From contig NZ_CP009286.1 in NCBI RefSeq assembly GCF_000758685.1, forward strand, positions 2,944,501-3,008,500: a DNA stretch of 64,000 bases, read 5' to 3'. The notes beneath the pieces are model-generated. The model was not told the origin of the DNA. It did not search any database and saw only the letters and a list, made by a program, of their open reading frames with translations. Of the stretch, positions 20,239-21,075 are shown piece after piece; position 1 is the first letter of the stretch, and each line of letters opens with the position of its first letter. Both the position numbers and the translations under genes were made by a program. This DNA comes from Paenibacillus stellifer (GTDB lineage: Bacteria > Bacillota > Bacilli > Paenibacillales > Paenibacillaceae).

Positions 20239-20260
20239 TTGTATTTAATTTTAAATACAA
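20239..20260. promoter_or_regulatory. perfect AT-rich palindrome, candidate operator
   Basis: TTGTATTTAA and TTAAATACAA form 10-bp arms around TT. The palindrome lies midway between the start of the S-component gene (minus) and the methionine-rich gene (plus), in a 308-bp intergenic region (20093-20400) that otherwise shows no gene. It fits a dimeric repressor site (MarR-, GntR- or Rrf2-sized). There is no T-run suggesting a terminator. Confidence 0.5.
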
Positions 20261-20400
20261 ACTTCTCACTGTTAATGTCAGATATTTCTAAATTGAAAAA
20301 AAATTTCAATGATTTTTCCTAACAATGAATTGATTTTCATAGAGGGATATAGTAGCTTTAAAGAGAAGTAAAAAATTCCATTTGAAGAGGAGAGATTGGT

Positions 20401-20610
20401 ATGGAACAAATGTGTATGCAGATGATGGGGGCAATGTGTATGGAGGATATGATGAGCAAGATGAAATGCATGAAAATGTGCATGGAAAAGATGTCCGAGA
20501 TGGACATGCCCATGGACACAGAAATGATGATGTCTAAAATGCAGGAATGCGACGAAATGATGACAATGATGATGAAAATGATGCGCGACATGATGCAGAC
20601 TTCAAAATAA
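20401..20610 (+). CDS. methionine/cysteine-rich miniprotein
   Basis: A 69-aa protein with 30 Met (43%) and 5 Cys, plus many Glu/Asp/Lys and no long hydrophobic stretch. Met residues recur every two to four positions with M-C-M and M-K-M-C-M patterns (MEQMCMQMMGAMCMEDMM, MKCMKMCMEKM). GAGGAG lies eight bases before the ATG, so translation is credible. Such Met/Cys spacing is typical of soft-metal (Cu(I), Ag(I)) ligation or of sacrificial oxidation targets. I know no named family that fits. A TtgA-T-run type terminator is not evident after it. Function is unknown; metal binding is an inference. Confidence 0.72.
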   Translation: MEQMCMQMMGAMCMEDMMSKMKCMKMCMEKMSEMDMPMDTEMMMSKMQECDEMMTMMMKMMRDMMQTSK

Positions 20611-20730
20611 GAAGCATCGTACTAAATACGCAGCAAGTCATACGCCTAACAAGATACGAGTATGTAAATTGCTTGTGATTCTTGGGCTGAGCAGACAACT
20701 GCATGCCTGTCTTATAAGTGATACCTCAGC

Positions 20731-21075
20731 TTACCCTTCCTTATAGAACCCCTGGATTTTCTTCGATGCAGCAATACGCGCCAGTTTCAATTCCCAAATT
20801 TCTTCAATCCATTTACTCTTCATTCCGGCATTCGGGACTTCCCGAAGATTCGAGAACAACGCAAGCAACTGATCATTGATCCGGTCAAAATCCTTCCACA
20901 GTTCCTGCAGTTCTTCATTTCTATCGTAGCCTTCGCCAGCAACAGTTAATTCCGACAAAATCTCAAGAATATCGGACTGCCACTGAACATCGCCAATCTG
21001 CTTCGCATAATTCAACAAGTCCAGATAATCGTCAACCCGGCGGGCGGGAAAGATGGTTTGATTGCTGTATCCCAT
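20731..21075 (-). CDS. conserved hypothetical protein
   Basis: 114 aa, soluble, mostly helical: PARRVDDYLDLLNYAKQIGD, then ILEILSELTVAGEG, then a second helical half ending ARIAASKKIQGFYKEG. AAGGAG precedes the ATG. It has no recognised motif and is flanked by unrelated genes. Codon use and the ribosome-binding site support it as a real gene. Confidence 0.65.
   Translation of the reverse strand: MGYSNQTIFPARRVDDYLDLLNYAKQIGDVQWQSDILEILSELTVAGEGYDRNEELQELWKDFDRINDQLLALFSNLREVPNAGMKSKWIEEIWELKLARIAASKKIQGFYKEG

Follow-up and report, generated by a model that had tools for sequence, protein, structure and literature searches.

A methionine-rich microprotein gene of Paenibacillus stellifer, its conserved companions and a hairpin type that recurs before sulfur operons

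We describe a short gene in a stretch of 64,000 nucleotides from Paenibacillus stellifer (contig NZ_CP009286.1, positions 2,944,501 to 3,008,500 of the forward strand; this whole stretch is called the window here). Its product consists of 43% methionine (Met), and we refer to it as the Met gene. Judged by its pattern of substitutions, it is a real protein-coding gene under purifying selection. Comparison of related loci further reveals a near-constant pairing with another gene, c0, a covarying RNA hairpin 3' of the Met gene in most Paenibacillaceae-type loci, and the same hairpin type placed like an attenuator ahead of sulfur and methionine operons. We tentatively propose, rating the proposal somewhat short of an even chance, that the product is a cytosolic, acidic, Met/Cys-rich microprotein with a part in sulfur/methionine homeostasis. 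Its likeliest function would be that of a structured reserve or buffer of methionine (sulfur). No known cytosolic family of such composition was found in the database searches made, and the gene is tied to two further undescribed items, a family of partner proteins and an RNA element. The components of the locus are these:

20401..20610, plus strand: Met/Cys-rich protein gene, ATG start, TAA stop, 69 amino acids, 30 Met (43%), 5 Cys
20386..20394, plus strand: Shine-Dalgarno-like AGAGGAGAG, read from the window sequence
20685..20707, plus strand: RNA hairpin with GA/A internal loop, GGCT-GA-GCAG-ACAA-CTGC-A-TGCC; 35.1 bits with model R1, E 0.03 with model R2, covariation
20731..21075, minus strand: partner gene c0, 114 amino acids, N-terminal motif DDYLDLLNYA..IGD..WQ

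A previous, sequence-only reading of this DNA had noticed the Met gene and missed the two conserved partners, c0 and the hairpin.

The Met gene and its relatives

The composition of the protein is far from chance. Met content amounts to 41-47% across 30 sequences of the genus and to 40-50% across 78 aligned sequences, and the P. stellifer genome holds a single copy of the gene. The sequence-only reading had claimed 69 residues, 43% Met and five Cys, a good ribosome-binding site, no named family, and neither signal peptide nor membrane helix. The translated open reading frame and the Shine-Dalgarno-like site agree with the first two points, and purine-rich sites also lie upstream of the start codon in the related loci inspected. 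Searches of Pfam, NCBIfam and PHROG matched no family (25 members gave no Pfam family, and the window protein gave no NCBIfam family), and among the paper titles listed none concerned such a Met-rich protein. The window protein is acidic and has no Ile, Leu, Val or aromatic residue, so that on composition a membrane helix or signal-peptide core is implausible. The original observation was thus right and, if anything, understated.

Purifying selection, for which a dN/dS below 1 had been proposed as a check, was found in a set of 78 full-length sequences: pN/pS is 0.24 overall, and 0.36 when only non-Met columns are counted. All 78 sequences share Cys50, Asp51, Glu52 and Thr55, yet the third codon positions of these residues differ between sequences, with all four codons in use for Thr. 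Because the non-Met residues are selected while third positions are free, the protein itself matters. Of 132 replacements of Met at well-conserved columns, 16 are to Leu, Ile, Val or Phe, whereas BLOSUM62 would predict 52%; since Met columns hardly ever turn into these residues, it is probably sulfur that is kept rather than hydrophobicity. Eight alignment columns contain exclusively Met or Cys, and two columns swap the two residues nearly in step (Cys-Cys 35, Met-Met 37, mixed 6; n=78 related sequences that are not independent). Length changes are concentrated in one central stretch. The S residues of the C-terminal half show helical periodicity (p=0.007 for residues 42-69), those of the N-terminal half no significant one (p=0.22), and a two-helix "Met zipper" is therefore half supported.

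Two other readings of the frame were set aside. An antisense His-rich protein (ATG reversed gives CAT) was rejected: GTG, which would leave an antisense His unchanged, stands only once at Met columns, next to 2285 ATG codons. A leader-peptide role is not favoured, because c0 usually lies on the opposite strand and non-Met residues are conserved.

Relatives with conserved Met/Cys spacing and synteny, another check proposed earlier, do exist. At E<=1, 38 of 100 genomes of the genus match, with 33 full-length genes, 2 shortened ones (G061, G093) and 3 matches only near E 1. Profile searches match 111 of 392 sampled genomes of the order (23 of 49 genera), 21 of 398 in a sample of the class, including 4 from beyond the order, and 7 of 397 in the order to which G678 belongs. 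A database search yields 67 proteins at E<=10, with the Bacillus cereus group, Priestia, Aneurinibacillus, Cohnella and Saccharibacillus among the sources; those that bear a name are annotated as hypothetical. Contigs with the gene include those of Paenibacillus sinensis, P. dauci, P. tengchongensis, P. caseinilyticus, Ectobacillus funiculus and three Saccharibacillus. With the B. mycoides homolog as query, plasmid and phage collections gave no match in BLAST, which masks low complexity. Shortened or lost copies are seen in L065 (41 codons), L064 (44 codons), L173 (an 18-codon remnant with promoter and hairpin) and L176 (no open reading frame).

The partner gene and the 3' hairpin

Convergent to the Met gene and directly 3' of it, c0 is present in 83 of 84 loci (79 of 80 once duplicates are removed), at a median gap of 141 base pairs. 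When neighbours are clustered, the c0 cluster spans 19 genera and the next one 13, the latter judged by eye to be a broad grouping. Beyond the order, 5 of 9 loci link c0 with the Met gene. L226 and L233 have the convergent arrangement, and L223, L235 and L236 carry c0 upstream on the Met-gene strand. The other four (L224, L225, L232, L234) yielded no c0, but some of them stop close to the Met gene. The link is thus retained in two arrangements, which argues for function. Conversely, 8 of the best 30 c0 loci have no Met-rich frame of 30 amino acids or more, L173 with its remnant being one of them. Among neighbours outside the order we noticed, by eye, a nitric-oxide-synthase oxygenase-like gene (L223:8631-9707, plus strand) and an Spx/ArsC-like gene (L226:10317-10715, minus strand).

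As for the identity of c0, NCBIfam gives no match, Pfam and PHROG give weak sub-threshold matches, and the best E against solved structures is 0.28. Three relatives (P0003, P0045, P0067) carry "Flagellar protein FliT" as an automatic UniRef name, and c0 is small like FliT; yet when 40 c0 members were compared with Pfam (E<=0.01), FliT was not one of the 9 families matched, so that c0 was not assigned to it. Variants of the N-terminal motif reappear at the C-terminus of zinc-finger-like proteins of about 135-150 amino acids, in proteins of about 50 amino acids, and in a paralog that adjoins an amino-acid ABC transporter gene set (L196, L189, L200, L198, L191, L187).

Between the Met gene and c0, the hairpin has the general form N4-GA-N4-loop-N4-A-N4. 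Its inner stem and GA/A loop were found in 65 of 79 distinct intergenic regions. Of 58 unique sites, 53, 58, 58 and 53 form the four outer pairs, which were not preselected and each of which occurs as several pair types; in a control with slid pairing the numbers are mostly low, a few slid G-U columns reaching 46-53 of 58. At 47 of 76 sites the hairpin is followed by a T-run on the Met-gene strand; no site has one on the opposite strand. In the window, a U-U mismatch takes the place of the fourth outer pair, and the T-run is weak.

Model R1 gives 83 matches at E<=0.01 in 67 of 80 loci, all of them by position at the Met gene: 82 lie 3' of it and one 5' (L070/G138). E-values of models as short as R1 and R2 are rough. 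A single mRNA end carries up to three copies. In 14 whole genomes, with only 150 candidates per genome scored, all 12 matches below E 0.0015 are at the Met gene. Because the Met gene of L051, which has no c0, still has a hairpin, the hairpin tracks the Met gene and not c0. Rfam contains no family above gathering threshold at the Met locus.

Related hairpins before sulfur operons

Within the genus, 31 of 35 genomes with the Met gene match the nifH model, as opposed to 24 of 65 without it (Fisher p=6e-7, uncorrected for phylogeny), and several genomes hold multiple nifH-like copies. We regard this association as only a lead, the one that pointed to the leaders. After weaker R1 matches near such genes (G000, G051, G008), 20 regions around nifH-model genes were fetched. 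They contain hairpins of the Met-gene type before operons, with a 3' strand AGGCY that is also the 5' arm of a terminator. Leader hairpins with the GA/A loop, most of which overlap terminators, are:

L308:10982-11004, minus strand
L304:4645-4667, plus strand
L305:11792-11814, minus strand
L299:4560-4708, plus strand
L300:11934-11956, minus strand
L033:18772-18794, minus strand
L069:8330-8352, minus strand
L099:18159-18181, minus strand

The genes behind them belong to cysK, metK, sulfonate, taurine-dioxygenase-like and nitrogenase-like operons. Over the NCBIfam cut-off are nifH and nifB (L308), cysK (L304) and metK (L305). Below it are an OAH sulfhydrylase (492 of 495 bits) and an SsuA type in L308, an SsuA type in L033, taurine dioxygenase in L069 (Ectobacillus) and nitrogenase-like subunits in L304 and L308. 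In Ectobacillus, the leader hairpin, the taurine-dioxygenase-like gene, c0 and the Met gene all lie inside 3 kb. Going by general background and by PMC12552129, the nifH-nifB-OAH sulfhydrylase clusters probably resemble sulfur salvage of the methylthio-alkane reductase type.

A hairpin overlapping an intrinsic terminator before a gene is the geometry of an attenuator, and the leaders have it. Five such sites occur in 0.4 Mb of nifH-like regions and seven in 1.5 Mb of Met loci. Four of the seven are orthologous and stand before ssu-type permeases, one precedes taurine dioxygenase, one (L051) precedes an alcohol-dehydrogenase-like gene beside nitrogenase-like genes, and the site at 8146 in L033 is unlike the others. 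None of the seven is the Met-gene hairpin, and the window contains no site of this geometry.

A second model, R2, rests on 10 leader hairpins, and Met-gene hairpins were kept out of it. On 1.53 Mb of Met loci it yields 31 matches at E<=0.05. Of these, 6 are members of the model itself, 23 are hairpins on the 3' side of the Met gene, spread over 22 loci that include the window, and 2 are others. On 38 other loci it yields 11 matches at E<=0.01, of which 5 are members and 6 are new. The new sites precede cysK (one in L304, two in L299), metK (L300), an SsuA-like gene unnamed by NCBIfam (L303) and an ABC ATPase with taurine/nitrate NCBIfam matches below cut-off (L300); L299 and L300 come from the window's own genome. 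A weaker match (L099, E 0.12) stands before ssuE, ssuA and ssuD, which are over the cut-off, and ssuC and ssuB, which are below it. From these reciprocal matches we read the Met-gene and leader hairpins as one RNA element, and the leader hairpins apparently represent an undescribed sulfur attenuator RNA. Rfam detected only tRNAs over threshold in 7 leader regions, further scans of leader sites gave no family, and none of the paper titles listed concerned such leaders. The element seems to mark a sulfur-acquisition regulon missing from Rfam.

We take these leaders to be comparable with attenuators that use an antiterminator hairpin (RAT/LicT, ANTAR targets, riboswitches). As in those systems, a leader hairpin ahead of an operon competes with a terminator that overlaps it; unlike them, the hairpin has 23 nucleotides and a GA/A internal loop, has no Rfam family and occurs also at the Met-gene 3' end.

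R1 matches in L297 and L306 overlap coding frames and were taken as chance. One element of the window's own genome (L298:13637-13659, minus strand; G000:C1:4385637-4385659) joins a promoter-like sequence to the hairpin and a terminator, the same strand being free of genes for 1.7 kb, and is perhaps a stand-alone small RNA.

Possible roles of the protein and upstream features

We suggest that an RNA-binding factor, for which c0 is one candidate, or a ligand recognises the hairpins. In the leaders, a held hairpin would sequester the strand shared with the terminator, block termination and so switch sulfur acquisition on. At the Met mRNA, the hairpins would couple the mRNA end, its stability or its titrating capacity to the same signal. 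Three roles had been offered for the protein by the sequence-only reading, whose interpretation as a whole is partly supported. The sulfur/methionine role gains independent support because the hairpin type is shared between the Met gene and sulfur leaders, while copper buffering and oxidant scavenging rest on composition. That storage is its purpose, rather than metal binding, is our guess.

Several observations weigh against a sulfur reserve under such control. Firstly, 13 of 80 Met loci, most of the Saccharibacillus-type ones among them, have no hairpin or a weak one, and neither Ectobacillus nor any of the 9 Met loci outside the order gives an R1 match. Secondly, the Met hairpin is without the competing terminator that leaders have. 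Thirdly, leader regions were picked after first matches near nifH-like genes, which favours further finds; one R2 match (L092) precedes genes without a named sulfur role and another (L058) is antisense inside a coding frame. Finally, strict conservation of Met positions and the QxCDEMMT core exceed the needs of a pure store.

Cytosolic Cu(I) is usually bound by Cys, and this counts against a doubtful alternative, a cytosolic Cu(I)/Ag(I) buffer whose thioether and thiol ligands bind soft metal as a methionine version of Csp3. The paired interchange of Met and Cys, the columns restricted to these two residues, and the many MxM, MxxM and MCM motifs of the protein fit such a ligand set. No copper gene was recognised beside the Met gene in the loci inspected, where neighbours were not annotated systematically, and the hairpin points toward sulfur genes. 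Csp3 itself is described, in PMC5171941, as a Cys-lined four-helix bundle. The Met protein resembles the Csp3 cytosolic copper storage proteins in being cytosolic, rich in sulfur ligands and probably partly helical; it differs in the dominance of Met and its chain of about 70 amino acids, and it was not placed among the Csp proteins, which its family-model searches did not return.

Rather unlikely, in our estimation, is that the protein is secondary: the 43%-Met frame would read methionyl-tRNA supply, and the 1-3 mRNA hairpins would act as a decoy titrating the sulfur-leader factor. The hairpin type common to gene and leaders, its multiple copies and the single copy 5' of the gene speak for this, and serine codon usage of SinR, reported as a sensor in PMC3862929, is a precedent for codon-based sensing. 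Against it stands the selection on non-Met residues. An extended version, which we consider unlikely, is a single-molecule methionine gauge: the frame turns methionine supply into protein while the mRNA hairpins titrate an antiterminator, possibly c0, of an undescribed sulfur-starvation attenuation regulon. This regulon would possibly comprise cysK, metK, ssu, taurine dioxygenase and nitrogenase-like sulfur-salvage operons.

A sacrificial oxidant sink, in which Met is oxidised and repaired by MsrA/MsrB as in a cytosolic counterpart of MrpX or BcrX, appears quite unlikely. Very high Met content and an acidic, soluble composition are in its favour; the protein is not exported by composition, its positions and not just its composition are conserved, and neither an msrPQ-type nor any other msr (methionine sulfoxide reductase) neighbour was recognised in the loci inspected, not every neighbour having been run against the family library. 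PMC8315932 describes MrpX as periplasmic and tied to the methionine sulfoxide reductase system (citing Melnyk et al. 2015) and BcrX as an MXKDX-repeat protein under ECF sigma factor control. Like these proteins of the MsrPQ system (Azospira, Brucella), ours is a small, very Met-rich bacterial protein; unlike them, it has no export signal in its composition (no hydrophobic core) and no MXKDX repeat, and it has the partner c0. It was not counted among them.

Least probable is a helical partner of c0 with a Met-rich surface that binds c0 or nascent hydrophobic segments, by analogy with the Met bristles of the SRP54 M domain: near-obligate pairing, mainly central indels and C-terminal periodicity fit, whereas the N-terminal half lacks periodicity and Met is hardly ever swapped for Leu, Ile, Val or Phe.

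Together with its conserved partner gene and the hairpin type that recurs before sulfur-uptake genes, the Met gene hints at an undescribed way of storing or gauging methionine. It bears on whether bacteria bank methionine in a dedicated protein, and it offers routes to sulfur sensing in these soil bacteria, many of which have nitrogenase-like genes.

Two features lie upstream of the Met gene:

20239-20260: palindrome TTGTATTTAA-TT-TTAAATACAA, two perfect arms of 10 bp on either side of TT; it lies upstream of the ECF gene
20330..20358, plus strand: promoter-like element TTGATT-N12-TATAGTA; alternatively -35 TTGATT, 17 bp, -10 TAGCTT

The sequence-only reading had pointed to the palindrome and to a sulfur-linked ECF/TudS-like neighbourhood. 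The palindrome exists as a perfect repeat, present in 5 of 236 loci, all five from the window's own genome. The gene names are upheld by NCBIfam (ECF, NF045596; TudS-related, NF045597). Apart from the window, only P. sinensis has the ECF cluster next to the Met gene; the TudS-related cluster lies within about 7 kb in 6 of 84 loci, one a duplicate. Neither is generally conserved with the Met gene, and both were dropped as functional clues.

The promoter-like element was likewise rejected as a regulon marker. Its strict pattern TTG-N15-TATAGTANTTT, which the window promoter fails while fitting a looser one, has 29 matches in 61 genomes of the genus, 19 at the Met gene and 10 elsewhere, versus 36 control matches. 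At the gene itself, T[AG]TAGTA lies within the last 140 nucleotides upstream in 60 of 84 loci, and a TTG 18 nucleotides upstream is nearly invariant among the 56 unique promoter sites in the profile.
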